The notes under the pieces are model-generated. The model was given only the letters and a program-made list of their open reading frames with translations. It made no database searches and was not told the origin of the DNA. From a virus, in IMG/VR virus record IMGVR_UViG_3300006917_000006, positions 1 through 47,972 of that record: 47,972 nt of DNA; one strand, written 5' to 3'. Within the stretch, counting starts at the first letter, position 1; each line of letters starts with the position of its first letter. A program made the translations under genes and the position numbers. Of the stretch, positions 1,623-44,429 are shown piece by piece.

Positions 1623-1955
1623 ATGGACTTCAGGAATTTCAACATAGACTCTCGCGTTGTGCTTGAGATCGGATATGCGGTCATTGCGATGGCCGGAGGA
1701 GTCGCCCAGTACCTCGAGAGATACATCAGGGAGGGCAACTTCCGCATAGGTCAGTTCCTCGCGCAGGTATTCGTCTCCGGATTCTCTGGGTGGATCTTCG
1801 CCCATTTCTGCGCGAATCTCGGACTCCCCAACGACCTCAGCGTCGCCTTGTCCGGTATCGGAGGATTCTTCGGCGTAAACGCGCTGAACTATCTCTACGA
1901 GCGCGTCACCAACTCAAAGGCCAAGAGCGACGATGGAGCAGGACTTCCAGGTTAA
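1623..1955 (+). CDS. Holin, LydA-like
   Basis: A 110-residue membrane protein with three hydrophobic segments at about residues 12-31, 43-67 and 72-92, separated by a basic turn (YLERYIREGNFR) and a short loop, with a charged C-terminus. Size and order fit the LydA-like phage holin family (PF16083 by recollection). It would form the inner-membrane lesion that times lysis and releases the muralytic enzyme. There is no Shine-Dalgarno before the ATG. It sits among tail genes, while the candidate endolysins are on the other strand near 22 and 25 kb, so the lysis genes are split. The last 23 bases overlap the next gene. Confidence 0.75.
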   Translation: MDFRNFNIDSRVVLEIGYAVIAMAGGVAQYLERYIREGNFRIGQFLAQVFVSGFSGWIFAHFCANLGLPNDLSVALSGIGGFFGVNALNYLYERVTNSKAKSDDGAGLPG

Positions 1956-4030: not shown

Positions 4031-4059
4031 TTGACAAAATAGACAAAAACTGGTATAAT
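4031..4059 (+). promoter_or_regulatory. Sigma70-type promoter with extended -10
   Basis: TTGACA at 4031-4036 and TATAAT at 4054-4059 with a 17-bp spacer ending TGG (extended -10). Transcription would start near 4066, only about five bases before the ATG at 4071, so the message is predicted leaderless or nearly so. Confidence 0.9.
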
Positions 4060-4070
4060 CCACCCATTGT

Positions 4071-5308: not shown

Positions 5309-6445
5309 ATGGCACAGTTTCAGTACGTAGACACCGGAGGCAATCTCCAGAGCGTAGAGGCGGCGGACGCACAGGCGGCCCTCGCCGCGGCTAAGAACAT
5401 CGCGCCTAATAGCGGTGTCATCGCGCCGCCTATCGGTCAGCAGGCCGCGTCCCCCGCAGCTCCGGGTGCGCCAGCACCAACGGACACATCGGCGTCGACG
5501 CAGGCATTCTTCGATCAGCTGACCAAGCGCCTTCTCGGAGAAACAGGCGGAACTTCTTCGGTAAACCCTGTTTCCGGCGCGGTCGATTCTGCCATCAAGG
5601 ACCTGCAGTCGGGACTCGAAGCGTCCCAGAAGGGAATCAAGGCCAAGTACCAGCAGCAGCGCGATCGTATCGGGTACGATTACGAGCTTGCGACGACAGG
5701 GGCTCGGGAGGGAATGATGAACCTCGGCGGCGCTTCCCAGCTCGCTATCCTGACGCAGTATGACGAAAGGAATCGCCGCGCTCTCAACGACCTCAACCTT
5801 GCGGAGCAGCAGGCTCTCGCTACGGGACAGTACGAGGTAGCGAGCAAGATCGCCGATCTCAAGATCCAGCGTGCGCAGTCTCAGCTGGACTTCGAGCAGA
5901 AGACGTTCCAGAACCTCTTCCAGGCGACGCAGCTCTTCATGCAGCGCGACGCGGCGGCTCGTGAGGCACAGCAGCAGCAGTTCCAGCAGAAGGCGAAGAT
6001 GGCTGAGATCGCGCTCACCTACGGCCTTAAGCTCAATCCGACGGATACCCTGGAGTCGGTCATCGACCGGGCCATGCCTATGGCGAGCGAGGATCGGAAG
6101 CTCCAGCTTGCCAAGATCCGCGCGGAAATCGCCGCGACCAATCGCAGCAACGTATCTTCTGGCGGAGGAAGCGTCAATTGGGCACCGTTCGCCGCGAAGC
6201 TCGATGAGTCGCGCCGGGACAACGGCGGCTACATCCAGTCGGACGCCTATCGCCAGGTCCTCCAGCAGTACCTCGCTACGGTCCCTGGTGCTACGAAGAC
6301 CAAATTTGACGAGCAGTTCTCGAGCGGCCTCAACGGCGTAGACCGTGCGATGTTCGGAGACGGAGGATCCTCTGGTGGTGGCGGAGGGGTAAGCCCGGCA
6401 CTGCAGTACCTCCAGTCGTACGGCTCTACGGCCCCGACACGATAA
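5309..6445 (+). CDS. Gln/Ala-rich coiled-coil virion protein
   Basis: A 378-residue protein. An Ala/Pro-rich N-terminus (to about residue 65) leads into a long helical, probably coiled-coil region (residues 90-240) rich in Gln, Ala, Arg and Lys, for example KAKYQQQRDRIGYDYELATT and FQQKAKMAEIALTYG. A Gly-rich linker (GDGGSSGGGGG) is near the C-terminus. No enzyme motif is seen. Its place directly before the 1345-residue protein suggests an internal virion or ejection protein of the podovirus type, but a tail component is also possible. Start ATG follows the upstream stop by two bases. Confidence 0.7.
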   Translation: MAQFQYVDTGGNLQSVEAADAQAALAAAKNIAPNSGVIAPPIGQQAASPAAPGAPAPTDTSASTQAFFDQLTKRLLGETGGTSSVNPVSGAVDSAIKDLQSGLEASQKGIKAKYQQQRDRIGYDYELATTGAREGMMNLGGASQLAILTQYDERNRRALNDLNLAEQQALATGQYEVASKIADLKIQRAQSQLDFEQKTFQNLFQATQLFMQRDAAAREAQQQQFQQKAKMAEIALTYGLKLNPTDTLESVIDRAMPMASEDRKLQLAKIRAEIAATNRSNVSSGGGSVNWAPFAAKLDESRRDNGGYIQSDAYRQVLQQYLATVPGATKTKFDEQFSSGLNGVDRAMFGDGGSSGGGGGVSPALQYLQSYGSTAPTR

Positions 6446-6452
6446 TTAAGCC

Positions 6453-9400
6453 ATGTTCGGTTTCCTCTCCCCAGAAGCAATTGCGGAGAAGGCGAAGACG
6501 GCTGGCCGAACCTTCTGGTCTACGTTCGAAGACGAGGTTCGGAACAACAAGGCGTTCTCGACCATCTCGAAGACCCTGGACTTTATGAACCAGGGTCATT
6601 CGCCTACGGTGGCGAAGACGCTCGGCATGGCTGCCTATATGGGCCCATCGGCGCTCATCGGAGCGACGGCGGAGAAGCTCGGAACGGAGATTTTCAAGGG
6701 GTTCACGCGGTCCGGTGCCTCACTGTGGACTCAGGGGTTCGGGATGGCACCGTGGAAGCCGGTTACGCCACTTGAGAAGAACTTCCTCGGCGACGAGGAG
6801 ATCAAGCCGTACGGAGAGAACGTCTCAGACGCCATCAAGTCCGGCTATAAGTTCGCCGACTGGTCCAACCTCAATGCGCCCGGCGACAAGAAGATCACGG
6901 GTCTCGGATTCGGTATCGGTTTCGCCGGTCTCTCTGCGCTCGACTTCACGCCGGCAGGAGAGGGCAAGCAGGCGATCAAGCTCGCTGGAAAGGCAAAGGG
7001 AGAGTTCGAGGCTGCGGTGAAGATCGCTGACGAGCTCCTCGATGCGCGGAAAGCCGCCAAGGCCGGAGCGGAAGTCCCGTTCAAGCAGCAGGCAGTCGAG
7101 TTCGGAAAGAAGGCGACCAACCAGATCGTCGACTTCAGCGCACAGCTGGCACGGGACGAGAAGGTGGTCGATAAGGCGTACCAGTCGAGGCAGGTGGTCA
7201 GCGCGGAAGACGTTGCGAACGAGCTTAAGTCACTGGGTACGGCGGGCGGGGCGAGTGACTTCCTCCTCGATCAGGTGCGTTCTGCCGGCTCGTATACGAA
7301 GAGCGAGGTCAATATCAAGGAGCTGCTCAAGCGTGACGGCGGTATCGCCGATTACATACGCAAGGGTGGTGAGCAGTTGCGCCGTTACAGCGGACCAGCC
7401 AACATGGACCGCCCGATCATCATCGGTCCAGATGGCGACGTTCTCGACGGGTTCAACAGGATCCATCGTGCATCGAAGGAGGGGATCGAGAAGCTACCGG
7501 CATACATAGCAGATTCTCAGGTAACGAAGCCGTCGGTAGGCACGATCGACGATCTCGTCGACTACTCGCTCGACTACGTGAAACAGGCGGGTCAGTTCAT
7601 GGACGACCAGGGCGTTACCGGAGCGATCCAGGACATGGTGCAGAAGGGCTATCGTCCCGACCACTTCGGCATGTACCTCATTGCCCAGCAGGCGGATGAC
7701 GTGGCGAAGGCAGGGTTCAAGACCGGCCTCAGCGACGCAGAGATCCAGGCGCTCAAGGGCCTCAGCCACGTGTACGAGCCGTATGCGCAGAAGATCTATT
7801 CGGCCAACAAGGCCATGCGCGACATGCTCGTCGAGAACGGCGTGTGGTCGCGCGAGTTCGCGGACAAGCTCGAGAAGCTCTACCCGAAGTGGGTTCCGCT
7901 CAAGCGCGTCATGGAGGTGTTCGGCGAGAGCTCGGGGTCGAGGGCCATCGGAGGACTGTCCGAGCAGACCATTGCCCGAAGGCTTGTCGGATCCGAGCGC
8001 GAGATCGAAGACCCGCTCGAGTCGCTGTTCGGTACCTACACGCAGGCGTTCCAGCAGGCGACGAAAAACAAGCTGGCGCAGACCTACGCTGATTTCTACA
8101 AGGCACCGGGAAACCCGCTCGGCATCAAGCCGATCAGGACCGTCGAGATGGTCAAGGAGCGGATCCGGCTCGCAGAGCAGTATACGAAGGCGAGCGACTC
8201 CTACCGGTCATTCGTCAAGGACGGAAAGGCGGTCAACAAGGACCTCAAGGCGCTGGCGAAGAAGTCCGCCAAGGTAGAGGAAGACTACAAGTCCATCATG
8301 GAAGAGGCGGCGGTACGCGCCGCGGAGTTCGACAGCGAATCGAAGCTCTGGGACCTGATCGAGAAGGCGGATACGCGTCTTCCTAAGATGGAGGAGCTGG
8401 CGAGAAAGACCAAGCTCGCCGAAGGAGACAAGCAGCTCTACGAGACGCTCGCGAACGAGCAGAAAGCGGCGATGGAAGAGATCCGCCAGGAGCTTATGCA
8501 GTACAAAGAGCCGGCCCGCGATCTCTCGCAGGGAACGCTGTCCCTCTACCGGGATGGCGTGAAGGAACTCTACGAGATCTCGCCGGAGGCGGCGACCGCG
8601 ATGAAGATGCTCGGCGTAGAGTCGATGAACCTCATCACGCGCGTGACCAGGCTGGCGGTTCGCACCCTCAAGTTCGGAACCTCGGGCGTGAGCGCACCGT
8701 TCGCCGTTGCTAACGCGTTCTTCCGCGATCTCCTTGGCGGACTGCTCAACACGCCGAACTCGCTTCGCGTGCTGAAGAACTATCCTAAGGCCCTGGGCGT
8801 AGCGGCGGCGCATGACTCGTGGTGGCTTCCGAAGAAGTATCGCGTCAACGCTGACAAGATCTACGACGAGCTCGTGCGCAACTCCGCTGGAGGAACGAGC
8901 TGGGACGTGGTGCGCGGCGAGGAGGCGAAGACCCTTCAGGACATCATCTCGCGGGCATCGCTGAGCAACCGGCTCGACTTCGCGACAGGCGTGCGCGAGG
9001 GAATCAAGGCGTACACGGAAGGAGGGATAAAGGCCGGTGCCAAGGCGGCGTTCGACAACGCGCACCCGCTCCAGTTCCTCGGCAGCGTGATACGCGACGT
9101 GGAGGACTTCTTCGGTCGCTCGGAGGAGATGGGTCGCCTCGCGCAGTACCTCGGCAACAAGGAGGCGTTCCTCAAGGCGGGGTACACGGAAGAGGAGGCG
9201 ACGCAGCAGGCCGCCCGCGTAGCACGTTGGGCGACGGCTAACTTCCGCCGCCACGGAGAATCGTCCCGTGCGCTCGATGCCCTGATCGCCTATTTCGGCG
9301 CTTCGATCCAGGGAAGCCGCGCGACGGTTCGTGCCGCAAAGGCTGATCCGAAGTGGTTCGCCACGAAGTTTATGACGATGGTGGGCGTTCCGACGGCAAT

Positions 9401-10490: not shown

Positions 10491-10697
10491 CTACCAGGGA
10501 CGCTCCTTGCTCTCGGCTACGTCGAACACCTTGGCGACGCGTACGGTCATGGCCCCACGCATAACGCCGAGAGGAGAGACGCACATATAGCACATCACCA
10601 GAGGAAGCTTCTCAGGAAGCCAAAGCACCCCATTGCAGTTCGAGCATCGGTACTCGTACAGCTCTACGGGGTGCTTTTCGTTAAGCCAGCTGATCAT
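10491..10697 (-). CDS. Small zinc-ribbon protein
   Basis: A 68-residue protein with two CxxC pairs (YRCSNCNGV near residue 18, MCYMCVSP near 36), a rubredoxin-type zinc ribbon. The start ATG overlaps the stop of the upstream secreted protein (ATGA). Its stop touches the stop of the convergent polyvalent gene. Function unknown. Confidence 0.7.
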   Translation of the reverse strand: MISWLNEKHPVELYEYRCSNCNGVLWLPEKLPLVMCYMCVSPLGVMRGAMTVRVAKVFDVAESKERPW

Positions 10698-14194: not shown

Positions 14195-15000
14195 ATTCCG
14201 AGTAGGTTCTCGATGGTGATCAGGTCCTCGTTCGCATCCTGCGTGTGGTCGAGCCACTTGCTGAGGAACTTGCCGCACATGAAGGCCGTGAAGTCCTCCT
14301 TGAAATGCTCGTTATCGCGGAAGTGCAGCGAGTAGCTGGCGATACCCGTATCCTTGTCCGTCGAGAGCAGGATGATGACGCGGCCGTCGTACTGCTCCTT
14401 CGTCTCTTCCTGGAGGGCCTGCTGGTAGGCGGCGGTCTGCGCCCAGTAGGTCTCCCTGACAGCGGTCCCGGTCTTGATGTCGCCCACGTACTTCTTTCCG
14501 TGGAGCACCATCGTGCAGTCGAGCTTTCCCACGTAGTCGTATTTCTTCGAGTAGACGACGCGCTCGGTATCGATGAAGTCGGGGCGCTGCTCGGCGATGA
14601 GCTGGCGGAACGCGTTGAGCTTGTCGAGGATCGCCGGCTCGTCAGGCTCGGGGAAATCGACGCCCTTGACGGTAAGTTCGGCGTACTTGTGGACCGACCT
14701 GCCGCGATCTGCCGCCCCACCCTTCTCTCTGAGGTGAGACTTCCGTGCGCCTTCGAGGATGTCCTCGAGCTCGTAGACCGTCAGCTCCCTGCCGGCCGTG
14801 AGCTGCTCGCGCACGTAGTTGAGCGCCATCTTAACCGTCCAGAAGTGGAGCGGCTTGGCGATGGAATCCAGCGCGGAGCTCACGCCCTGGATCACCGGAC
14901 CGTTCGGCTTTCCCTTCGTATAGCGGTGACGGTCGTCGTCGTAGTAGATCTTGACCTTCCCGTTATAGAGCTTGTGTTCCTCGAGGGATCCGGCGTTCAT
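14191..15000 (-). CDS. PD-(D/E)XK exonuclease, RecB/Cas4-like
   Basis: A 269-residue nuclease with the RecB-family layout: His104 (SVHKYAEL), KLDCTMVL with Asp161, GDIKTG with Asp174 and Lys176, and the C-terminal motif WAQTAAYQQAL (Gln188, Tyr192). These are the metal and DNA ligands of the lambda-exonuclease/RecB/Cas4 superfamily. It probably resects DNA ends in recombination or genome concatemer processing. It sits between GroES and the metallopeptidase, overlapping both by four bases, and travels with the NinG and DnaQ-like genes upstream. Confidence 0.85.
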   Translation of the reverse strand: MNAGSLEEHKLYNGKVKIYYDDDRHRYTKGKPNGPVIQGVSSALDSIAKPLHFWTVKMALNYVREQLTAGRELTVYELEDILEGARKSHLREKGGAADRGRSVHKYAELTVKGVDFPEPDEPAILDKLNAFRQLIAEQRPDFIDTERVVYSKKYDYVGKLDCTMVLHGKKYVGDIKTGTAVRETYWAQTAAYQQALQEETKEQYDGRVIILLSTDKDTGIASYSLHFRDNEHFKEDFTAFMCGKFLSKWLDHTQDANEDLITIENLLGI

Positions 15001-15299
15001 TTCCTGAGTACCGCCACCACGTCCTCGGCCCTGACGATGAGCGCCTTGCCGAGGTCAACGGGCGTCGAGCTGTACTTGTTGAAGAGCACGATGTCGCCAG
15101 GCTTGATGTACTGGCTCACGTCCACGTCCTTGGTGCCGGAGCCGACGGCGATGACCTCGCCCATCTCGGACTTGTCCTCCTCGTTCTGCGGGCGCTTGAA
15201 CTGACCCTTCTCCTCGATCTTGAACGGCTGGATGAGCAGGTTGTCCCAGAGGGGAAAAACGTTGGCTATGGTGAATTTAGGTGTCTGCTTAGATGTCAT
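14997..15299 (-). CDS. groES: Co-chaperonin GroES
   Basis: A 100-residue protein with the whole GroES beta-barrel: VFPLWDNLLIQPFKIEEK, GEVIAVGSGTK, YIKPGDIVLFNKYSSTPVD and ALIVRAEDVVAVL. The mobile loop (about residues 30-46) is charged and lacks the usual Ile-Val-Leu contact triplet, so its docking to GroEL must differ, perhaps tuned to the phage GroEL at 18957-20561. It would cap the chaperonin ring for ATP-driven folding of phage proteins. It overlaps the HAD gene by 11 bases and the nuclease by four. Confidence 0.93.
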   Translation of the reverse strand: MTSKQTPKFTIANVFPLWDNLLIQPFKIEEKGQFKRPQNEEDKSEMGEVIAVGSGTKDVDVSQYIKPGDIVLFNKYSSTPVDLGKALIVRAEDVVAVLRK

Positions 15300-18956: not shown

Positions 18957-20561
18957 TTAGTCTTTCTTTTCATCCTCGATGAGAACGAGGTAGTCGCCCG
19001 ACAGGAGGGCCTGTGCGACGCTGATTGAGTTCTGCACGGAGTTCCTGAGCACGACGACGGGCTCGATGATCCCCGCCTCGCTCAGATCCTCGTATTGTCC
19101 GGTGTTCGCGTTGTAGCCGATCTTGTCGGTGACGTTCGCGAGCATGGTCTTGAAGTGCTCGTTGCAGTTCAGCGCGATCTGCTTGAGCGAAGACTGGCAG
19201 TAGACTTCCACAAGTCCGCGAATGTCCGTGTGGAGCTTCTTGAACTTCGTCTTCGAAAGCTTCTGGTAGATGTCCCAGAGCGTGATCCCTCCTCCGAGGA
19301 CGTAGCCCTCCTGAAGTGCGGAGCGCGTAGCGTTGATGGCGTCCTCGTAACGATGTAGCTTCTCGGTCACTTCGGGGAGCGTCGCTCCTCCGACGCGCAC
19401 GGTGGTGATGCCGTTGGTCAGGCAGGCGATGCGGCGCTTGAGGGTCTTGCCCTCTACGGAATCAGGGTCAACCTTGTCGAGCTGCTTGCGCAGGGCGTCG
19501 ATACGGAGATCGAGTCCTACGTTCCTGCCCTCTCCTGCGAGGAGCATGGTGCGGCGGTTGTCGGCAAGGGCCTTAGTGGCGTGGGTGAAGAACTCGGAGA
19601 GCTTCTTCCCGTCGCCCGACTCTCGTGCGGCCATGAGGCGGTCGGCGATCGACCCGTTCTTGTCGAGCACGACATTCCCCCTGAGATAGATCGCAAGGTC
19701 ATCGAGCGCGTCAGGATCGGACTCCTTGATGAGAAGGATCTCCATGTTCACCTTCTGGTCGAGGTGGTTCGTGATGAAGATGCCGGGTGCCTGCCCGATG
19801 AAGTCGGACGCGACCACGACGAGACGGTTCTCGCCGAGGGCTGCGGCAGCCTGCATGATCTCCATGACCTCCTCCTCGTAGTAGAGGCGCTTATCCGTGA
19901 TGAACACGAGCGGGTTCTCGTGAACAGCAGCCATGCCGCCGGGACGGTTGGCGAGATGCTGGCTGAAGAGTCCGCGCTCGATCACGAACCCGTTCTCCTC
20001 GATGATCTCGACGCCGAGCTTGCTATGCGCCTCGAGGAAGATGAGTCCATCGAGTCCCGCACGCTTCACCGCCTTCGCGACGTTCTTCGCGATGTCGGTA
20101 TCGTTGCTGGCAGAAACGGACGCTACGTACTCGAGCTGCTTGTCATCGTCTACTTTCCGTGCCCGTGAGTTGATCTCATCTACTAGGCACGATGCGACGT
20201 AATCGAGTTCCCGCGTAAGGTCGGCGTTGTTCCATCCTCGGTCGAGCAGGGCGAAGCCTGCGCGGATCAGAGTGTCAGAAAAGAGGATGGTGGTCGTCGT
20301 TCCGTCGCCCGCTACCGCATTGGTGCGGAACGAGGAGTTCTTGACGAACTCGACGATGGCGTTCTCTACGGGATCCTTGAGCTGGATATGGCGGGCGATC
20401 GTGAACCCGTCCTTGGTGATGAGGAAGTTGCCGTTCTGGTCCTCATAGACGACGTTCTTGCCCTTGGGCGTCAGGGTTCCCACTACGGGTCCTACGAGCT
20501 TGGCGAGTCCGGAGAACATGCGCTCCCGTACTGCGCTGTACTGGTAAGGTTCTGTATTCAT
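18957..20561 (-). CDS. groEL: Chaperonin GroEL
   Basis: A 534-residue group I chaperonin of full architecture. ATPase residues are intact: TKDGFTIARH with Asp51, AGDGTTTTIL (residues 84-93), and the distal EDAINATRSALQEG with Asp407 followed by GYVLGGGITL. Equatorial, intermediate and apical regions are all present (YVASVSASND, IEENGFVIERGLFSQHLA, ASDFIGQAPGIFI). It ends LIEDEKKD without the Gly-Gly-Met tail. Start chosen at 20561 because the promoter is at 20592-20620 and the longer frame would begin upstream of transcription. It forms the folding chamber with the phage GroES at 14997. Likely clients are the capsid or the large virion proteins. Confidence 0.95.
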   Translation of the reverse strand: MNTEPYQYSAVRERMFSGLAKLVGPVVGTLTPKGKNVVYEDQNGNFLITKDGFTIARHIQLKDPVENAIVEFVKNSSFRTNAVAGDGTTTTILFSDTLIRAGFALLDRGWNNADLTRELDYVASCLVDEINSRARKVDDDKQLEYVASVSASNDTDIAKNVAKAVKRAGLDGLIFLEAHSKLGVEIIEENGFVIERGLFSQHLANRPGGMAAVHENPLVFITDKRLYYEEEVMEIMQAAAALGENRLVVVASDFIGQAPGIFITNHLDQKVNMEILLIKESDPDALDDLAIYLRGNVVLDKNGSIADRLMAARESGDGKKLSEFFTHATKALADNRRTMLLAGEGRNVGLDLRIDALRKQLDKVDPDSVEGKTLKRRIACLTNGITTVRVGGATLPEVTEKLHRYEDAINATRSALQEGYVLGGGITLWDIYQKLSKTKFKKLHTDIRGLVEVYCQSSLKQIALNCNEHFKTMLANVTDKIGYNANTGQYEDLSEAGIIEPVVVLRNSVQNSISVAQALLSGDYLVLIEDEKKD

Positions 20562-20591
20562 AAGTTGTAAATCCCTTTGCAGGGCACATAC

Positions 20592-20620
20592 ATTATAGCA
20601 GACTTTGACGGAAAAGTCAA
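20592..20620 (-). promoter_or_regulatory. groEL promoter
   Basis: Minus strand: TTGACT at 20615-20620 and TATAAT at 20592-20597, spacer 17 bp. Leader of about 24 nt with a weak AAAGGG 11 bases before the ATG. Confidence 0.9.
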
Positions 20621-20627
20621 ATGAAAC

Positions 20628-20636
20628 TGTGGATAA
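20628..20636 (-). promoter_or_regulatory. DnaA box TTATCCACA upstream of groEL promoter
   Basis: Perfect consensus DnaA box, 7 bp upstream of the -35. The same placement occurs at 27454 and 33549. Confidence 0.7.
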
Positions 20637-20639
20637 CGC

Positions 20640-20660
20640 AAAGCCCCCGGTGTCGGGGGC
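20640..20660 (-). terminator. Terminator of the tRNA/RNA operon
   Basis: Perfect hairpin GCCCCCG/CGGGGGC with a 4-base loop, then TTT on the minus strand. It separates the tRNA cluster from groEL. Confidence 0.75.
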
Positions 20661-20946
20661 CATGCGCATGATTTCTTACTGGATCGGCCGGCAGATTCGA
20701 AAGGCACACTGCCTGGGCGATCGTTCGGATGACTCCTGTTCGAAGTCCGTTCGCTGCGTCCGTGTGAGCACCCTCTGTAGGGGGCACCGACACACTGAGC
20801 GAACAATTACAGTATCCACTAACTGCTTCTTGATCAGGGACCAATGCAAATCCCTGGAAGCATATATGTGACGGGCGCGAGAGATGGCGCTTACGCACCA
20901 CCTTCGCCTAGGGAAACTAGACTACCCCTGTGGATAAGTCAAGCTG
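20661..20946 (-). other. Non-coding region between tRNA-Trp and terminator
   Basis: No convincing gene on either strand. It would be transcribed as the 3' end of the tRNA operon. Inverted repeats are visible (GTGTG...CACAC around a CCC/GGG pair at about 20760-20795), so a folded 3' segment is possible. A DnaA box (TTATCCACA, 20929-20937) overlaps a TTGACT on the minus strand but has no matching -10. Confidence 0.5.
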
Positions 20947-21019
20947 CGGGCGGCCAGGGAATCGAACCCTGCCAGCAGGATTTGGAGTCCCGCTCGCCAG
21001 CCTTGGAACATGGTCGCCC
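20947..21019 (-). tRNA. tRNA-Trp (CCA)
   Basis: Acceptor stem GGGCGAC/GCCGCCC with one A-C mismatch, anticodon loop CTCCAAA (CCA), T-arm CAGGG-TTCGATT-CCCTG, discriminator G. The D-arm is weak. CCA is not encoded. Confidence 0.85.
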
Positions 21020-21125
21020 TACAATCGATTCTAAGGCGCGTTATGTCAGAAGACGTAGCTGGGGTCATCTTTTGACAAAACGTCGCTCTCGTGGTCTTGT
21101 GGTGCAAATGCGAGCGTCCTGGCGG

Positions 21126-21197
21126 AGCGTCGTACGGGGCTCGAACCCGTTCCTTCTGATTGGAAGTCAGATGTGCTACCGGTAACACCTACAACGC
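21126..21197 (-). tRNA. tRNA-Gly (TCC)
   Basis: Seven-base acceptor stem GCGTTGT/ACGACGC, anticodon loop CTTCCAA in a TCTGA/TCAGA stem, T-arm ACGGG-TTCGAGC-CCCGT. Confidence 0.92.
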
Positions 21198-21199
21198 GG

Positions 21200-21271
21200 A
21201 GCCTCATAACGGATTCGAACCGATCTCTCCAATTTACAAGATTGGGGCTTTTCCTACTAAGCGAATGAGGC
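21200..21271 (-). tRNA. tRNA-Thr (TGT)
   Basis: Acceptor GCCTCAT/ATGAGGC, anticodon loop CTTGTAA in a CCAAT/ATTGG stem, canonical T-loop TTCGAAT. Two bases separate it from tRNA-Gly. Confidence 0.92.
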
Positions 21272-21312
21272 GCTATTATCATTATACCTATATCTTCATG
21301 TTTTGTCAAGTG

Positions 21313-21384
21313 CTCCCCAGGCAGGACTCGAACCTGCAACCTTCTCGTTAACAGCGAGCTGCTCTACCATTGAGCTACCAGGGA
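21313..21384 (-). tRNA. tRNA-Asn (GTT)
   Basis: Anticodon loop CTGTTAA, D-arm AGCTC...GAGC, T-arm GCAGG-TTCGAGT-CCTGC, acceptor TCCCTGG/CTGGGGA with wobble pairs. It lies directly downstream of the structured RNA. Confidence 0.92.
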
Positions 21385-21395
21385 ATATTCAGCAA

Positions 21396-21796
21396 GCCAA
21401 GGAGCGAGAGTCGTCGGGGGATTAATTCAGGAGGCCCGAAGGCCGTCCTGTCTGCCTTATTTATTCGGCAGCACCTTTCCACTCCCGCTCGCTGGCCTCC
21501 TGTTTTCTGACGGTGCGCTGGTGGAGGGGGCTAACGAAGTTACAACCTATTTCTCCTATCGGGAGCAACCCCGAAGGCGACTTGTTTCTCCTGGCGTGTG
21601 AGTGGCTGTCTCAGATACCTTTTGGGAGCGACCCCATATTCTCTCTGAGCCCTTAAACCTAGTTCCAGGAAGGCCGTCTAACCCCCACCATCAACGCGCC
21701 GCCCTTTGTTCGGACAGCCTGGTGCGCTGGGAGAGGGGCACTGCTAATTATTCACAGTCTAGCCGCGCGGCTTCGCCCCTCTCCAAACGCGCCAGG
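21396..21796 (-). ncRNA. Large structured RNA candidate inside the tRNA array
   Basis: About 400 nt with no plausible gene, between tRNA-Pro and tRNA-Asn. Three long-range stems partition it: 21396-21411 with 21481-21496, 21512-21530 with 21682-21700 (19 positions), and 21718-21738 with 21776-21796 (21 positions, 17 Watson-Crick). Inside lie smaller hairpins, e.g. 21428-21450. On the minus strand two hairpins close with the stable cUUCGg tetraloop, and G-U pairs favour that strand, the same as the tRNAs. The second and third stems share GGTGCGCTG/AACGCGCC halves, as if duplicated. Large ornate RNAs (GOLLD, ROOL) are known beside phage tRNA genes; I cannot assign this to either. Confidence 0.75.
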
Positions 21797-21809
21797 TTGT
21801 AAGGAACTG

Positions 21810-21880
21810 TCAGACTACGAGGGCTCGAACCCCGGCCAGATGGTCCCAAACCACCCGTGCTACCGCTACACCATAGTCTG
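21810..21880 (-). tRNA. tRNA-Pro (TGG)
   Basis: Acceptor CAGACTA/TAGTCTG, anticodon loop TTTGGGA in a GGTGG/CCATC stem, T-loop TTCGAGC, discriminator A. Immediately upstream of the structured RNA. Confidence 0.92.
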
Positions 21881-21885
21881 ATCTG

Positions 21886-21958
21886 TGGGCCATGAGGGAT
21901 TCGAACCCCCGACCACCTCCGTGTAAAAGAGTTGCTCTACCAGCTGAGCTAACGGCCC
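21886..21958 (-). tRNA. tRNA-Val (TAC)
   Basis: Acceptor GGGCCGT/ATGGCCC, D-arm AGCTC...GAGC, anticodon TAC in loop TTTACAC, T-loop TTCGAAT, discriminator A. The anticodon stem has a terminal A-G mismatch. Confidence 0.9.
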
Positions 21959-21961
21959 TGG

Positions 21962-22032
21962 GGTGGCTAATGGGACTTGCACCCATGTCGCCAGGTCCAC
22001 AACCTGGAGTTCTACTGCTGAACTATAGCCAC
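21962..22032 (-). tRNA. tRNA-His (GTG)
   Basis: Acceptor GTGGCTA/TAGCCAC, anticodon loop TTGTGGA in CCAGG/CCTGG, discriminator C as expected for His. The T-loop reads TGCAAGT rather than TTCRANY, and the base before position 1 is A, so G-1 would have to be added after transcription. Confidence 0.88.
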
Positions 22033-22079: not shown

Positions 22080-22556
22080 CTAAAGAACGGGCGGTAGCTC
22101 GCGCATCCTGACGGACACGGTGTAGCTCCAATGCTTCCAGTTCGAGTACTTCGTGAGAATCATGTTACGCGCAACGGCTCTCTGTAGGTCGCAGTCGTAG
22201 ATATTCTCCTCAGTCGCGCCGAATGACTTCCCGTAGGAGAGCCATGTGCCCATCTGGAACTGGAGACAGCCGTAGCTGTACTTTCCATTCACGTCGAGAA
22301 CCTTAGCGTTAGGATTGTTTTCACTCTCGTACTTTCCAAGCCTAGTAAGCCAGGTGTCGAGAGAGTCTTCCGAGACGCGCGGTTTCTCGCGAGGAACAGC
22401 GTATGTGGTCGTAGCGGTTGTTGGGGTCGTCGAACCCGTGGTGATCATCTCCGTTACCGGAGCGGATGCTTGCGCGGGCAGTGCCGTAAACAGAGAAATC
22501 GGCACCATGAGACTTACTGCCAGACTCGCTACGAGCCTTGTCTTGTAGTTATTCAT
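22080..22556 (-). CDS. Secreted transglycosylase/lysozyme-like protein
   Basis: A 158-residue protein with a signal peptide (residues 1-30, ending ALPAQA), a Thr-rich linker (residues 36-55) and a small SLT-type catalytic domain: LGKYESENNPNA with the candidate catalytic Glu77, then YSYGCLQFQMGTW (residues 93-105). It would cleave peptidoglycan glycan strands, acting as endolysin or at cell entry. The short SLT core with Ser-Tyr-Gly-xx-Gln-Phe after a Thr linker is a style common in Patescibacteria. Hairpins end six bases before its ATG, so translation may be controlled. No Shine-Dalgarno. Confidence 0.8.
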   Translation of the reverse strand: MNNYKTRLVASLAVSLMVPISLFTALPAQASAPVTEMITTGSTTPTTATTTYAVPREKPRVSEDSLDTWLTRLGKYESENNPNAKVLDVNGKYSYGCLQFQMGTWLSYGKSFGATEENIYDCDLQRAVARNMILTKYSNWKHWSYTVSVRMRELPPVL

Positions 22557-25051: not shown

Positions 25052-26083
25052 CTAGTGAGAATTGACGTAACCGCGGGTGATCGGGCCGAAGTAGCCGACG
25101 GAAGGTTTGATCCCCTTCGCTGCCTGGAACTTCGCCAGCGCGGAGCGCGTGAGGGATCCGAAGTAGTTCGTCTCGTTTCCCGGAGATCCGGGACCGGATG
25201 ACGCTACCGGGAATCCGTTCTTGTTGAGATACACCTGGAGGAAGCGAACATCCTCTCCTACCGAACCGATAGTCAGGTCGCGCGTGAACTGGTACGACGG
25301 CGGGGCCGGGAGCGGCTTCATCACGATCGTGACGCCGGCCTCCATCCACTGTCCGTTGAACCACTCCTCGCCGAACCACTGCCACCCCGGCTCATCACCA
25401 GACCCTACCGATGATCCCCATGACTGGAGTCCGCCTACGTAGAACTTGCCGTTGATAGTGCGGACCTTGCCGAAGTACATGAAGTGCCCCCACTGCCGAT
25501 ACGTCGGCGGCTTGGGAAACGCGGAGAACCACGTGCCGTTGTTCTCCCCGGCGAGCAACATCACGCATCCTCCGTTGTGCTTGATAGCCTGCGCTACCTG
25601 GTCGATGGTCGGCCTGATAAGGAACGCGTACGTCTCTCCCTTGCTGAGGAGGGCGTTCTGGCGCATCGCCTCGGTGATGACCACATTGAGATAATGGGCA
25701 TCGGTCTGCGGATTGCTCGAGCAGAGCGATTCGTAACAGACCCCCTGCGTGTAATCGAGGTGCGCGTTGTCGCCAAGGTATGATCCAAGAGCGACGCCGT
25801 TCGATACGACGGCTGTCTGGCGGTAGACGTATGCCGCGCTGCGCTCTACGTATTCTCCTCCGCGGAGCTTGGCCCTGACGGCGTTGTACTTGGAGAACGC
25901 CTGCCCGCCGCATGAGGTGGATTGTCCCTGATCGTTGATCGGGAGCTTTATGCCCAGTTCGTCTTCGATGTTGTAAGGAACGGAACGGTCGTTCGGTGCT
26001 ATCGCCGCGCCGAGTTCAGACCACTTGATGTCTGTGGGAGTCTCGACGTACGGGAGACCACCTGGGTTAAAGATGTCGATCAT
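25052..26083 (-). CDS. Papain-like (C1A) peptidase with peptidoglycan-binding domain
   Basis: A 343-residue protein. The papain-type core has INDQGQSTSCGGQAFS with nucleophile Cys58, WGHFMYFG with His200, and GLQSWGSS where papain has Asn-Ser-Trp-Gly, so the usual Asn is Gln220. Residues 268-341 form a peptidoglycan-binding domain: VGEDVRFLQVYLNKNGFPV, GPGSPGNETNYFG, ALAKFQAAKGI, GYFGPITR. This repeat wording is characteristic of Parcubacteria wall proteins. No signal peptide, so release by holin or virion carriage is implied. Likely the endolysin, cutting peptide cross-links. It has its own promoter and a structured leader. Confidence 0.85.
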   Translation of the reverse strand: MIDIFNPGGLPYVETPTDIKWSELGAAIAPNDRSVPYNIEDELGIKLPINDQGQSTSCGGQAFSKYNAVRAKLRGGEYVERSAAYVYRQTAVVSNGVALGSYLGDNAHLDYTQGVCYESLCSSNPQTDAHYLNVVITEAMRQNALLSKGETYAFLIRPTIDQVAQAIKHNGGCVMLLAGENNGTWFSAFPKPPTYRQWGHFMYFGKVRTINGKFYVGGLQSWGSSVGSGDEPGWQWFGEEWFNGQWMEAGVTIVMKPLPAPPSYQFTRDLTIGSVGEDVRFLQVYLNKNGFPVASSGPGSPGNETNYFGSLTRSALAKFQAAKGIKPSVGYFGPITRGYVNSH

Positions 26084-26094
26084 AGTAAAGGGGC

Positions 26095-26134
26095 GGCGGG
26101 GCTAAGGTTCCTATCCGGAAGCTTTCACCCCGCC
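26095..26134 (-). promoter_or_regulatory. Leader hairpin before the peptidase ATG
   Basis: Seven-base stem GGCGGGG/CCCCGCC (26095-26101 with 26128-26134) around an inner TTCC/GGAA hairpin, 11 bases upstream of the start codon. It could delay lysis-gene translation. Confidence 0.55.
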
Positions 26135-26211
26135 ATCAGGCACCCGAGAACCTGACGAGCGGGCCGTCAAAGTTACTTTGTCCCTGTGAGATTCCGGGTG
26201 TTCCGTGGTGG

Positions 26212-26240
26212 ATTATACCATCAACGGAGCGATTTGTCAA
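26212..26240 (-). promoter_or_regulatory. Sigma70-type promoter with extended -10
   Basis: Minus strand: TTGACA at 26235-26240, TATAAT at 26212-26217 preceded by TGG, spacer 17 bp. Same consensus as the plus-strand late promoters, which suits a lysis gene. Confidence 0.9.
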
Positions 26241-36967: not shown

Positions 36968-36978
36968 GTACTTGACAA
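36961..36978. promoter_or_regulatory. 18-bp perfect palindrome with back-to-back -35 boxes
   Basis: TTGTCAAGTACTTGACAA is its own reverse complement and supplies a TTGACA to both directions. A dimeric repressor or activator bound here would set both blocks at once. Confidence 0.8.
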
Positions 36979-37000
36979 ATTACGATTTTCCTGGTATAAT
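36972..37000 (+). promoter_or_regulatory. Rightward promoter for terminase genes
   Basis: TTGACA at 36972-36977, TATAAT at 36995-37000 preceded by TGG, spacer 17 bp. The ATG at 37010 lies about three bases from the predicted start of transcription: a leaderless message. Confidence 0.92.
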
Positions 37001-37009
37001 CCGGCTAAT

Positions 37010-39595: not shown

Positions 39596-39624
39596 TTGAC
39601 AAATGTCGCAAAACGTGGTATAAT
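39596..39624 (+). promoter_or_regulatory. Portal promoter
   Basis: TTGACA at 39596-39601, TATAAT at 39619-39624 preceded by TGG, spacer 17 bp. Leader about 14 nt. Confidence 0.92.
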
Positions 39625-39644
39625 CCAGCATACTTGGGTCCTAA

Positions 39645-41705
39645 ATGGGAGAAGTAGACGTAACCGCCCCCCTCAGCATCTCTAGCCGCATAGAAAACGG
39701 CGGAGCTATTCGGCGCGAGGAATACAAGCACTCCGATAAGGAATCGGAGGTTGTCTCTCAGGTATACGCTCTTTTCCGTGAGTCTGCGGACGATCGCAAT
39801 CGCAGTTTCGCCTATTTCGACAACCGCACCCTGACCGAGTACATCGAGGACTCGGTTCGTCGCTTCTATACCAATATCGACGAGCGCGACGGCATCGACG
39901 AATGGCAGTCGATCCTCCATGATCCGTTCACGCGCAACAAGCTGCTCGCTATCCTCGGGCGCGTCGTTGATGCGCTTCCCGTAGCGGAGATTACCGGACG
40001 AGGAGACCAGAACGCCATGAAGGGCGAGATCATCGGTGCGCTCTTCGAGTACTCCGAGGACGTGTCCGATTCTGATCAGTTCATGGTCGACCTCATCGAG
40101 GACGCTATGGTCAAGGGTACGGCTGTCGGATACGAGGGCATCGAGACGACAACCAAGAAGCGGCGTGTCGTCATCGACTACAAGAACGGCGACGATCTCG
40201 TGGTCAAGGAGCGCACCGTCAGGACGCGCAAGCTCATTTCCGCGCTCGTTCCCCTCGAGGAGTTTTATCCTTCGAGCGTAGGAATCAGGCGCATCAAGGA
40301 CATGCCGTATGCGTTCTGGCGTACGGAGCTCTCCCTGGCCAAGTTCCTCAAGGAATATCAGAATTACGAGAAGGCGGAGTACGTCTGCGGCTACCAGTCT
40401 GCGACCGAGGGATCGGAGTCGGTTGCCCGTCCGTACTATCAGGACTTTATCACGCCGACCACTACCGACGGGAACGTCGAGGTCATCAAGTATTTCAACC
40501 AGGAGACCGATGAGTACATCATCGTCGCCAATGGCGTATGGCTGAACCCGCTCAAGGGGGATATCGTTTCCCCGCTTCCGTTCAACCATAAGGCGCTCCC
40601 ATTCTTCGAGGTTCGCTACGACAATTACGGTATCGACTTCTTCTATGGAAAGTCGTTCCCTGATCGTATCAGCGTTCTCCAGGACACGCTCAACGTCCTG
40701 CACAACATGTTGCTCGACCAGAGCTTCCTCACGATCTTCAGCCCGATCCTCATCGCAGGCGTGGATGACATCGAGGACGACTTCCTGGTTCCAGGGCGGC
40801 GCATCACTATCGATACTCAGGGCCTTCCGGTGCGCGACGTGTACCAGAAGATGGACCTCGGTACGCCGAACGGATGGCACCAGTGGATCATGCAGTACAC
40901 CAAGCAGGTTCTCGAGGAGTCGTCGATCGACTCGGTATCTCAAGGATCTGCCGGTGTCGGAGGGCGTACGACGGCTACCGAGATCCGCTCTGCCGCAGCC
41001 GGCCTCACCTCGCTGCTCGGCCTGTTCGGAAGGTTCATCAAGTTCGGCGTCAAGGAGCGTGCGCGTCTTCGCGTGGAGAACATCCTGCAGTTCTATTTCG
41101 ACGAGAAGAATCCGATCAGCGACCACGTGCTGTCGCAGAAGCAGAAGGAGGATCCCAACATCTTCAATAGCTTCTATGTGAACTCCGGAGCAGCTACCCC
41201 AGGAGACCGTGGCGAGAAGATCATCGACGTGTATAAGCGCGGGGCGAATCTCCCGACCAATACCGATAACCAGATCAACGCCAAGGTTGATGAGGTCCTA
41301 TCAGGAAGAAAGGTGACGAGGTTCACGATCACACCGGAGTTCTTCGATGACTGGGAGGCGTGCATCAAGATCGTCCCGAACACGCAGTCTGAGATGTCAA
41401 AGGACGTTGATCGTGCGCTCGAGCTCCAGTTCCAGCAGGCGTTCCTCGGCCTCTACCCGGATCTGGCGAACCGGAAGGCGCTTGCATCGACACTCGCAGA
41501 GAAATTCGGCCGCGATCCGTCCAAGGTAATCATGGAGCAGCAGCCGCAGGGCCCACAGCTCCTCGGCCCCGACGGACAACCCATCCAGTCACAGGGATCC
41601 ATGATGCCTAACGGAGGTGGGGACAACTCAGCCAACGTGGTGAAGGGAGAAACCGGGGTCGGAGGAGAAGGAATCGACCTCCGCGCACTCATGGGAGGAT
41701 CGTAA
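39645..41705 (+). CDS. Portal protein
   Basis: A 686-residue protein in the classic place after terminase. Typical portal features are an N-terminal helical wing (RNRSFAYFDNRTLTEYIEDS), a central beta-rich clip with LPFNHKALPFFEVRYDNYGI, the stem region RISVLQDTLNVLHNMLLDQS, and the late helix TTATEIRSAAAGLTSLLGLF. The last 80 residues are Gly/Gln-rich and probably flexible. It forms the dodecameric DNA gate at one capsid vertex and docks the terminase. Family is not the SPP1 or HK97 type by eye; length resembles podovirus portals. Confidence 0.88.
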   Translation: MGEVDVTAPLSISSRIENGGAIRREEYKHSDKESEVVSQVYALFRESADDRNRSFAYFDNRTLTEYIEDSVRRFYTNIDERDGIDEWQSILHDPFTRNKLLAILGRVVDALPVAEITGRGDQNAMKGEIIGALFEYSEDVSDSDQFMVDLIEDAMVKGTAVGYEGIETTTKKRRVVIDYKNGDDLVVKERTVRTRKLISALVPLEEFYPSSVGIRRIKDMPYAFWRTELSLAKFLKEYQNYEKAEYVCGYQSATEGSESVARPYYQDFITPTTTDGNVEVIKYFNQETDEYIIVANGVWLNPLKGDIVSPLPFNHKALPFFEVRYDNYGIDFFYGKSFPDRISVLQDTLNVLHNMLLDQSFLTIFSPILIAGVDDIEDDFLVPGRRITIDTQGLPVRDVYQKMDLGTPNGWHQWIMQYTKQVLEESSIDSVSQGSAGVGGRTTATEIRSAAAGLTSLLGLFGRFIKFGVKERARLRVENILQFYFDEKNPISDHVLSQKQKEDPNIFNSFYVNSGAATPGDRGEKIIDVYKRGANLPTNTDNQINAKVDEVLSGRKVTRFTITPEFFDDWEACIKIVPNTQSEMSKDVDRALELQFQQAFLGLYPDLANRKALASTLAEKFGRDPSKVIMEQQPQGPQLLGPDGQPIQSQGSMMPNGGGDNSANVVKGETGVGGEGIDLRALMGGS

Positions 41706-41711
41706 TCACAC

Positions 41712-41975
41712 ATGATTGAAGAAACTGACGCACTAGAAGAGGGTTATGACACGGAAGAGCTCGTGAAGATCTTCTCTGCGGCATCGGAGATCGAAGGATT
41801 CTGCGATCTGCTGCGGAAGATGATCTACCGCGATATGGTGCTCCACGTGAACACGCCTAAGGAGAACAGCGACATGATCCGCGGGGCGATCATCAGGACC
41901 AAGTATCTCCTCAAGCTGGTACAGACGAAGGGCGACCCCCGTAAGCTGCGCCAGGTACTTGACAAAAAGGAATAA
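41712..41975 (+). CDS. Small hypothetical protein after portal
   Basis: 87 residues: ETDALEEGYDTEELVKIFSA, GFCDLLRKMIYRDMVLHVNT, GAIIRTKYLLKLVQTKGDP. Acidic then basic helices. GGAGG ends 12 bases before the ATG inside the portal end, perhaps by chance. The next promoter's -35 lies inside its last codons. Unknown function; it may help assembly. Confidence 0.7.
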   Translation: MIEETDALEEGYDTEELVKIFSAASEIEGFCDLLRKMIYRDMVLHVNTPKENSDMIRGAIIRTKYLLKLVQTKGDPRKLRQVLDKKE

Positions 41976-41987
41976 AAATGGTATAAT
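41959..41987 (+). promoter_or_regulatory. Promoter of the scaffold-capsid operon
   Basis: TTGACA at 41959-41964, TATAAT at 41982-41987 preceded by TGG, spacer 17 bp, overlapping the end of the previous gene. Drives a leader of about 245 nt. Confidence 0.92.
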
Positions 41988-41993
41988 CCAGGT

Positions 41994-42239: not shown

Positions 42240-42878
42240 ATGGACAACAACATCCCCACTGACCCCCAGGGTCAGGACCCTACAGAACTTCAGTCGAAGA
42301 TCGCGGAGCTGGAAGCAGCGAAGCGAGCCGCTGAGGAGGCTGCTGCCGCGGAACGTGCAGCGAAGGAGGGCCTTGTTGCCGAGCTGAAAGAGCTCCGCAC
42401 CAAGAAGACCGACCTTGAGCCCCCAAAGCCGGCCACTGAAGATATCGATGCCAAGATTCGTGCCGCCCTCGAAGAGAAGGAGAGGCAGGACGCTAGCCGC
42501 AGTAAGGAAGTCGCTCTCGAGCGCTTCAAGGCCGAGCATAAGGATTTCCATCCGGACAACGATCCGGGCGGGCTGAAATTCGCCGCGCTCCTCAAGGAGT
42601 TCGAGAGTTTCGACACCTCAGGTGCTCGTAGCGTAGAGGATTTCTCCTCTTACCTGCAGAAGTCTCTTCGTCTCATCGCTCCCGCTAAGGGAAGCGAAGC
42701 GGAGACGGTCACGGATGAGCCGCCGGCTCCTGCTAAGTCAGGAGAACCGAAAGCGACGCCGGCATCGAAGCTTACCGCTAGAGAGCGTGAAGTAATCTCG
42801 CAGCTTGGATGGACCGAGGAGCGATTCCTCGATCTCAAGACCAAGAATCCTGATTACGTTAAAAGCGTTCTCGCTTAA
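42240..42878 (+). CDS. Scaffold-like protein
   Basis: A 212-residue highly charged helical protein: coiled coil at residues 15-60 (IAELEAAKRAAEEAAAAERA), an acidic linker, FKAEHKDFHPDNDPGG in the middle, and a C-terminal helix (SQLGWTEERFLDLKTKNPDY). This is the usual composition and place of a capsid scaffold, upstream of decoration and major capsid genes. It would guide procapsid assembly and then leave or be cleaved. No protease gene is seen next to it. Confidence 0.75.
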   Translation: MDNNIPTDPQGQDPTELQSKIAELEAAKRAAEEAAAAERAAKEGLVAELKELRTKKTDLEPPKPATEDIDAKIRAALEEKERQDASRSKEVALERFKAEHKDFHPDNDPGGLKFAALLKEFESFDTSGARSVEDFSSYLQKSLRLIAPAKGSEAETVTDEPPAPAKSGEPKATPASKLTAREREVISQLGWTEERFLDLKTKNPDYVKSVLA

Positions 42879-42920
42879 AGATTCTGTAGTCTACATTCAG
42901 AAACCTAGACAAGAACACCT

Positions 42921-43439
42921 ATGGCATTTAAGCAGGCGGGCACTCTTAGCCCGTTCGGTGGTCCGGTTCTGCGCAGCGACATCATCGCCAATTCAACAAC
43001 ACGTACCGAGCTTGATTCTGTAAAGATCTCCTCGGGATTCGTGGCTGCTGGAACGGCAGGTGCGCTCGTATACGGCCACGTTATGGCCCTCGTCACAAAC
43101 AACGGTATCGGTCTTAACACGACTGGTGCGGCTGGTGCGGCGATCGGCAGCTTTGTAAATGCGTACACGGTTGCTTCGAACAACCAGACGGTAGCTAAGG
43201 TTCGCGCGGTATCGGATATCTCCAAGGAGACCATCTATTCCGTCGATCCTGATGCGACTATCGGTACGACAACCGGATCCAACCTTCTCGGCTACTTCAC
43301 GGACATCGCGTCCGCGACGCAGACCGACGAGGACACCGCGGCAGCGACAACCTGCCAGTACGGAATCCTCGGCGTTGATCCGCTCGTGTCGGCGAACCAG
43401 CTCGTACACATTTTCGAGTCACAGGTATTCGGCGTATAA
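42921..43439 (+). CDS. Head decoration or minor head protein
   Basis: 172 residues, small and Gly/Ala/Thr-rich, beta-rich: GTAGALVYGHVMALVTNNGI, SNNQTVAKVRAVSDISKETI, ATTCQYGILGVDPLVSANQL. The alternating small residues and position directly before the major capsid gene suit a capsid-stabilising protein. It starts AFKQAGTLSPFGGPVLRSDI. No motif proves it. Confidence 0.65.
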   Translation: MAFKQAGTLSPFGGPVLRSDIIANSTTRTELDSVKISSGFVAAGTAGALVYGHVMALVTNNGIGLNTTGAAGAAIGSFVNAYTVASNNQTVAKVRAVSDISKETIYSVDPDATIGTTTGSNLLGYFTDIASATQTDEDTAAATTCQYGILGVDPLVSANQLVHIFESQVFGV

Positions 43440-43451
43440 CTCTAAGCTCTA

Positions 43452-44429
43452 ATGGAAAATCGTGGTAATTGGACAGATCTCATCAAAGGCGTAGGCCTGA
43501 TGATGGGTGAGGTCTTCAACCAGGCCTCCGAGGAGTATACTCCGGGTATCTTCTCGCTTCTCAACCGCAAGTCGGTTGATGGTGCTGTACGTAATGTCAC
43601 CGGTAAGACAGGACTTGGAAAGCTCGGTCGTTTCGACGACGGAGACGACCTCCCGTCGCGTCGGCGCTACAAGACGTACACAACCCGCATCGAAGTAAAC
43701 AACTACGGTGCGTTCATCGACGTTACGAAGAACTCGATCGTCGACCGCGACGAGCAGTTCCGTGCTGACCTCGACGAGATGCGCGATCTCACCATCGCTG
43801 CTAACTACTCGATGGATCAGGCAGGCGTACAGCTGTTCAATGGCGGATTCGCGACCTCCGTTGATGTAAACGGATATCGCATGACATGGTACGGAGACGG
43901 CAAGCCGCTCTTCTCGACCATTCACCCGACCGTTGTTCCTGGTGGAAGCACCCAGAGCAACGCGTCCTCGACAGGCATCCTGTTCACGCATGACAACCTC
44001 GAGACTGCTCGCGTAGCCCTCGTGCTCCAGCAGACCGACGACGGTCTTGCGCTGACCATGACAGGAAAGCCGATGCTCGTGCTTCCGGAGAACCTCCAGA
44101 AGGAGGGACTTGAGATCACCGCGTCGCAGCTGAAGCCGGATACGGCGAACAACGCGATCAACGTGTTCAGCAACGGAATGGGCGTAGACATGACAACCTC
44201 GGCGCTGTTCGACTCCGTTAACGGAGGAAGCAACACCGCGTGGTTCCTCTGTGTTCCGGGCCGTCACAAGCTCAATCACGAGGAGCGTCAGGCTCTTACC
44301 CTCGAGCAGGACACCAACATTAAGAACAAGGTAGTTACCTTCACGGTCGATGCCCGTTGGGCGAACTCAGTCACAGACTGGCGTCGCACTTGGGGATCGA
44401 AGGGTGACGGGGCTGCGTATAGCTCTTAA
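43452..44429 (+). CDS. Major capsid protein
   Basis: A 325-residue protein with HK97-fold features: an N-terminal arm with EVFNQASEEYTPGIFSLLNR, the E-loop-like stretch RRRYKTYTTRIEVNNYGAFI, the spine helix region DEMRDLTIAANYSMDQAGVQ, and the C-terminal P-domain (RKVVTF-type strands near GVDMTTSALFD and WFLCVPGRH). Length is normal for the simpler HK97 capsids. Position after scaffold and decoration genes supports it. The gene is followed by a strong hairpin that may hold back downstream transcription. Confidence 0.85.
   Translation: MENRGNWTDLIKGVGLMMGEVFNQASEEYTPGIFSLLNRKSVDGAVRNVTGKTGLGKLGRFDDGDDLPSRRRYKTYTTRIEVNNYGAFIDVTKNSIVDRDEQFRADLDEMRDLTIAANYSMDQAGVQLFNGGFATSVDVNGYRMTWYGDGKPLFSTIHPTVVPGGSTQSNASSTGILFTHDNLETARVALVLQQTDDGLALTMTGKPMLVLPENLQKEGLEITASQLKPDTANNAINVFSNGMGVDMTTSALFDSVNGGSNTAWFLCVPGRHKLNHEERQALTLEQDTNIKNKVVTFTVDARWANSVTDWRRTWGSKGDGAAYSS

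Follow-up and report, generated by a model that had tools for sequence, protein, structure and literature searches.

Tailed phages are known to encode, or to have acquired, xylellain-type C1A papain-like peptidases (PMC10380794); the enzyme described here is likewise encoded by a tailed phage, and the accessible part of that paper mentions neither Patescibacteria nor lysis. In a broad sense the papain-like fold is also that of the NlpC/P60 and CHAP endolysins, which combine Cys-His catalysis with wall-binding domains in phage lysis. According to the accessible sections of the relevant study, these form another superfamily cluster (PMC10318531), whereas the best matches of our enzyme are C1 enzymes, and a Pfam search of its catalytic half returned no CHAP or NlpC match. 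Xylellain itself (3ois), a short bacterial C1A cysteine protease, shares with our enzyme the Gln/Cys/His/Trp site, a similar length and an N-terminal stretch. It is, however, a cellular enzyme whose solved chain has no wall-binding domain, while ours carries one; the two are 16 percent identical over the structural alignment, and our enzyme has Gln220 where papain has Asn. Cwp84 (4ci7) is similar in its C1-type fold and in being a surface-linked cysteine protease (Z 16.0 against our structure model), but it is cellular, has a lectin-like domain and showed no PG_binding_1 in the match. The "peptidase C1A papain" of Thermoanaerobacterium phage THSA-485A matches an enzyme from a Patescibacteria prophage (L092), not ours. 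Phages and prophages of Patescibacteria have already been reported, as far as the available text of the two papers goes (PMC6509639; PMC7940616), and few such phages have been described so far (PMC6509639), since these bacteria have seldom been grown in culture and rarely have CRISPR systems. A full-text search of the open-access literature turned up no description of a papain-type lysin from a phage of these bacteria.

The stretch analysed here, which we call the window, is a 47,972-base virus record whose two ends carry an exact repeat of 123 bases. Another viral contig (L098) has the same sequence over 22 kb and crosses the terminal junction; together with the repeat, this indicates that the window genome, of about 47.85 kb, is complete or circularly permuted. 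The features referred to below are as follows.

25052..26083 (-): papain-fold (xylellain-type C1) peptidase with a C-terminal PG_binding_1 domain, proposed endolysin; 343 aa, ATG start
25298..26083 (-): catalytic part of the peptidase, residues 1-262, with Gln52, Cys58, His200, Gln220 and Trp222
25052..25291 (-): Parcubacteria-type peptidoglycan-binding domain, residues 265-343
26084..26205 (-): untranslated leader of the peptidase gene, about 120 nt, from a presumed transcription start
26210..26240 (-): promoter of the peptidase gene, TTGACAA-N13-TGGTATAATCC
4031..4061 (+): 31-bp promoter before the virion gene 4071-5306, ATG 12 nt after the -10 box
36972..37002 (+): 31-bp promoter before the packaging genes 37010 and terminase 37572, ATG 10 nt after the -10 box
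39596..39626 (+): 31-bp promoter before the portal-like gene
41959..41989 (+): 31-bp promoter before the head genes
1623..1955 (+): holin, LydA-type Phage_holin_3_3, 110 aa, presumed partner of the peptidase (E 1.1e-12)
22080..22556 (-): possible secreted transglycosylase-like protein, 158 aa, presumed second lysis enzyme
20946..22032 (-): seven tRNA genes, those for Asn and Val resembling Patescibacteria tRNAs
37572: terminase
39645-41705: portal-like protein
42240-44429: head genes
43452: head protein
6453: very large protein with an LPD38 domain
11899: polynucleotide kinase/phosphatase-like protein
18957-20669: GroEL-like protein
27465: DnaB-like helicase

A phage of 44 percent GC (L099) has terminase, portal and head genes in common with the window, in the same order and with the head protein at 64 percent; the papain-type enzyme was not found in its 24-kb contig. 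The GroEL-like protein of the window shares about 30 percent identity with the GroELs of other phages. The small protein encoded at 14997-15299, 3.7 kb from the GroEL-like gene, matches an ORF adjoining GroEL in two Patescibacteria genomes and is therefore probably the phage's own GroES. Within the annotated GroEL-like ORF lies a TGCTATAAT box (20592-20600, minus strand), which suggests that the true start is a later Met, about 36 codons in.

A first-pass annotation, made from motif wording, had proposed a papain-type peptidase fused to a peptidoglycan-binding domain, and had pointed to GPGSPGNETNYFG, GYFGPITR, Cys58, His200 and Gln220 in this ORF; all were found in their places. Single-sequence searches with the catalytic half gave no match in Pfam, PHROGs, NCBIfam or the PDB sequences, nor did the whole protein as a single query match anything in the PDB, and a first structure model, built from a three-row alignment (A1), reached a pLDDT of 37.6 and was set aside. 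Taken by themselves, the empty searches and the poor model would suit a chance likeness in which both domain calls are spurious. Profiles gave a different picture. The closest catalytic relatives in IMG/VR are L001, which is 56 percent identical and full length, and L002, which is 36 percent identical and lacks the binding domain. Both are phage contigs that have no host assignment, and a profile of these two with the window matched xylellain 3ois over positions 6-253 (E 4.7e-11). Adding three proteins from Patescibacteria genomes brought the match to E 7.8e-24, with many cathepsins and papains also matched, and one of these three, L092, passes the Pfam Peptidase_C1 cut-off on its own (E 2.2e-8). 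The Gln, Cys, His and Trp of the active site (Gln52, Cys58, His200 and Trp222 in the window) are invariant in 11 of the 11 aligned proteins. The papain-fold domain covers about residues 8-256 of the 343. An AlphaFold model from an eight-row alignment (m13329981ec3d) was of moderate confidence (pLDDT 70.9, pTM 0.67); Foldseek and VIA-align of this model ranked xylellain 3ois first (Z 19.9, 229 residues, rmsd 3.3). When A3 was compared by hhalign with one of the prophage enzymes, the probability reached only 63.5 percent. With profile, alignment and structure model concurring on papain, and with the binding domain above its curated cut-off (see below), a chance likeness is hardly credible. Thus the papain assignment, first claimed from motifs, is backed by agreement of the three approaches, and the catalytic half is, as predicted from sequence, a xylellain-type C1 papain-fold peptidase domain fused to a wall-binding domain. 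In L002 the papain-type enzyme is followed by a second 343-aa protein (5913-6944), which on visual inspection may have a Cys/His pattern and has no Pfam match.

The one departure from the canonical site is Gln220, which occupies the place of the papain Asn and is followed by Ser221-Trp222. This position is variable in the 11-row alignment, with Gln in the window and L001, Gly in L120, Ser in L117 and Asn elsewhere. Papain variants altered at this Asn retain some activity. Since the fold, the profile match and the Cys, His and Gln all hold, and since such variants are partly active, we keep the enzyme in family C1; its peptidase activity may nevertheless be lowered.

The C-terminal domain was recognised directly: residues 276-336 match PG_binding_1 (PF01471) at E 1.2e-9 with 38.6 bits, against a gathering cut-off of 23, which bears out the peptidoglycan-binding domain of the first reading. 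Its wording had been said to be typical of Parcubacteria surface proteins, and the link to Parcubacteria held. When three such binding domains were scanned against 84,980 GTDB species genomes, 183 relatives were recovered. Among the best 80 of these 183, titles named Patescibacteria lineages in 68 cases, "bacterium" in 11 and Polynucleobacter in 1; two of the lineage names among the 68 were confirmed as Parcubacteria in the taxonomy, and we take the remaining names to belong to Patescibacteria as well. The closest relative within the best 80 comes from a Kaiserbacteria genome and is 68 percent identical. In drawn samples, 26 of 192 Patescibacteria genomes, counting the centre G004, had the domain at E 0.001, against 1 of 200 control genomes, all from a single phylum, the lone positive being the centre genome G050, labelled Polynucleobacter and chosen because it matched. 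Without both centres, the counts are 25/191 and 0/199 (Fisher p 7.5e-9). Phage isolates gave only weak matches (E 0.2 or worse), so that the best matches do not lie in Gram-positive or proteobacterial phages to the exclusion of Patescibacteria. We therefore regard it as close to shown that the binding domain was taken from Patescibacteria. The genome labelled Polynucleobacter (L080/G050) has two Parcubacteria-type binding domains, possibly through a binning contaminant. At a contig end, L003 (1-393) shows the tail of an ORF with NSWG, then a Parcubacteria-type binding domain and then an amidase-like ORF; the end ORF is probably another papain-type lysin.

We then considered where relatives of the catalytic domain occur. 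They were found in 8 of 286 genomes of the Patescibacteria phylum at E 0.1 (3 at 1e-4 or better) and in 6 of 383 genomes of the class Paceibacteria at E 0.01 (5 at 1e-9 or better), the two samples overlapping. The strong matches were G162, G257 and G213 in the phylum sample and G213, G611, G538, G273 and G401 in the class sample. Of these 7 distinct genomes, 5 have the gene in a phage context, G538 in a cellular one, and in G401 it is a fragment with an internal stop. The control phylum gave matches in 4 of 249 genomes at E 0.01 (G741, G909, G703 and G751), and the two that were inspected, G741 and G909, were both in cellular context by eye. Since the raw frequency per genome is similar in both phyla, the difference between Patescibacteria and control lies in the context. 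None of 46 Patescibacteria genomes with the binding domain (G004-G049) had the catalytic domain as such. A tree of 16 catalytic domains put the enzymes of the window, L001, L002 and the G162 and G611 prophages on one side (support 99/97).

As for the phage contexts, G611, G162 and G273 have recognisable integrases, terminases, portals or head proteins, and G213 a tyrosine recombinase. The G273 phage (L131/L122/L132) is flanked by GAPDH and ribulose-phosphate epimerase genes and the G213 phage (L134/L119) by GAPDH and ribose-5-phosphate isomerase/epimerase genes, which suggests that these two prophages sit at the same chromosomal place, among GAPDH and pentose-phosphate genes, and share an integration site. 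The G611 phage adjoins murC, and the G162 phage adjoins gltX on the one side visible. Exact att repeats of at least 13 bases between the compared flanks were not found in three comparisons; one 15-base flank match in G213 lies within coding sequence. Integration of these prophages therefore rests on gene order. The genes that the window has in common with Patescibacteria prophages are the lysin gene and a few others, which match weakly.

Is the host itself a member of the Patescibacteria? The first-pass annotation had held that the phage infects such a cell or took these modules from one. The second half of this statement is now nearly shown for the binding domain, and the first half is supported by the catalytic clade, the tRNAs and the style of translation starts. 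The tRNA-Asn of the window is up to 89 percent identical to Patescibacteria tRNAs, against 85 percent for the best control, and a tRNA bit score of at least 84 was reached in 23 of 117 Patescibacteria genomes and in 0 of 125 control genomes, with up to three candidates scored per genome and the 84-bit line set after viewing the lists. A Shine-Dalgarno core precedes 5 of 41 window ORFs and 80 of 250 control-phylum ORFs (Fisher p 0.009); in Patescibacteria loci it precedes 11 of 123 ORFs at a GC of 0.5 or more and 26 of 359 over all loci, the ORFs having been picked by length, some of them spurious. Other groups too lack Shine-Dalgarno leaders, so that their scarcity here supports a Patescibacteria host and does not prove it. 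The k-mer comparison, which left out sequences shorter than 8,000 bases as well as L080 and every later L locus, did not separate the phyla by correlation (means of 0.53 for Patescibacteria and 0.47 for the control; 27 and 11 sequences of GC 0.50-0.66; p 0.33). The mean absolute difference was smaller for some Patescibacteria sequences (best 0.223) than for any control in the same list (best 0.312), and we give this little weight.

The virion genes give no indication of a Patescibacteria host. The portal matched in 7 of 383 Paceibacteria genomes at E 0.01 or better, with one good match, in G407 (E 1.3e-15, on a 7.7-kb contig). The terminase matched 942 phage records from many hosts and is thus uninformative. 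Nor does the GroEL-like protein resemble Patescibacteria GroEL (27-29 percent) more closely than the GroELs of other phages (29-31 percent). These results leave room for a phage of some other bacterium that acquired its binding domain from Patescibacteria, for instance from an epibiont of its host. A lysin binding domain should, however, suit the wall that is to be opened, and tRNAs, start-site style and catalytic clade all indicate the same host group; acquisition by a phage of another bacterium is accordingly rather improbable. Infection of a Patescibacteria cell is well supported, though not proven.

The expression signals bear on when the peptidase would be made. The gene lies among non-structural genes, outside the virion operon and far from the holin gene at 1623. 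A 31-bp element (TTGACAA, 13 bases, TGGTATAATCC) nevertheless precedes it, as it does virion and packaging genes; the window holds exactly five copies of the element, and 100 shuffles gave none. A scan of other phage loci with a looser form of the pattern did not find the shared promoter there. The sharing of a virion-gene promoter by a putative lysin gene is new here, and a gene so placed and so driven would fit a late-expressed endolysin. The promoters at 4031-4061 and 36972-37002 are perfect in both -35 and -10 boxes, and since the start codons at 4071 and 37010 follow so closely, their messages would be nearly leaderless. A hairpin just before the peptidase start codon had a folding z of only -1.62 and is not claimed.

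A common promoter with virion genes would also be expected if the peptidase rode in the virion and aided entry through the wall rather than exit. Consistent with this, the catalytic relative comes after fibre or tail genes in five Patescibacteria genomes, directly so in several relatives. But the window gene is not part of the virion operon, and what follows the gene in the relatives is a small holin-like membrane protein or a lytic enzyme, an arrangement like that of a lysis cassette; at the same loci a small coiled-coil or membrane protein often comes before the peptidase. Such lysis-cassette-like neighbourhoods were seen in L001, L002, L117-L120, L122 and L180-L182. We consider a role in entry distinctly unlikely.

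The domain plan is likewise that of a phage endolysin, with a catalytic domain, a wall-binding domain and no signal peptide seen by eye. We therefore favour, as probable, that the peptidase is the late-expressed endolysin of a tailed phage infecting a Patescibacteria (Parcubacteria/Paceibacteria) cell. Because no signal peptide is seen, the enzyme would accumulate in the cytoplasm late in infection until the LydA-type holin opened the membrane and released it. The C-terminal domain would then dock onto the wall and Cys58/His200 would cleave peptide bonds in the envelope, while the secreted protein encoded at 22080 would cut the glycan. The first-pass annotation had listed the latter as a small secreted transglycosylase. 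Its hydrophobic N-terminus is evident by eye, but the transglycosylase match is sub-threshold (PF06737, E 0.0035, 18.4 bits, cut-off 27). A further protein, the signal-peptide coiled coil at 10694, had been offered as a hint of the host. The signal-like N-terminus and a coiled-coil-like stretch can be seen, again by eye; the ORF had no Pfam match and no phmmer match among the loci compared, and the host hint from it is thus unconfirmed.

Which peptide bonds would be cut is a separate matter. Endolysins usually attack stem or cross-bridge peptides, and these seem somewhat the better candidates; wall-anchored surface proteins come next, with a considerable though smaller chance. C1 peptidases usually cut proteins, and we know of no C1 enzyme that cleaves peptidoglycan peptides. 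Since C1 enzymes are proteinases, it has to be taken seriously that wall-anchored surface proteins, and not wall peptides, may be what is cleaved. In its full form, this alternative keeps the same host and makes the enzyme a wall-anchored protease that digests wall-attached or S-layer proteins, leaving the peptidoglycan to the 22080 protein. Cwp84, the S-layer-associated cysteine protease among the structural matches, matures the S-layer protein, and ultra-small bacteria carry a layered surface coat. On the other side, the gene of the relatives occupies the endolysin position and true endolysins commonly have wall-binding domains. We judge a dedicated surface-protein protease to be a minority prospect, and retain the endolysin as the preferred reading.

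What is new, as far as our literature search could find, is the combination: a C1-type lysin with a Parcubacteria binding domain, recurring in Patescibacteria prophages. More speculatively, Patescibacteria phages, both temperate (the prophages of G611, G273 and G213) and apparently lytic, may share a lysis solution undescribed for other phages. In this solution a C1 thiol proteinase would replace the CHAP, NlpC or amidase enzyme and would be aimed at a protein-rich envelope by the cell's own surface-anchoring domain; we hold this broader proposal to be possible and would not yet bet on it. If it is true, the C1 lysin would be a marker for Patescibacteria phages in metagenomes, since a lysis enzyme recognisable by sequence, in free phages and prophages alike, would allow unassigned viral contigs to be assigned to hosts. 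The finding also raises the question of whether a papain-type proteinase opens such cells by way of wall peptides or of surface proteins, and it makes the peptidase a candidate tool for opening the cells of a large uncultured bacterial branch.
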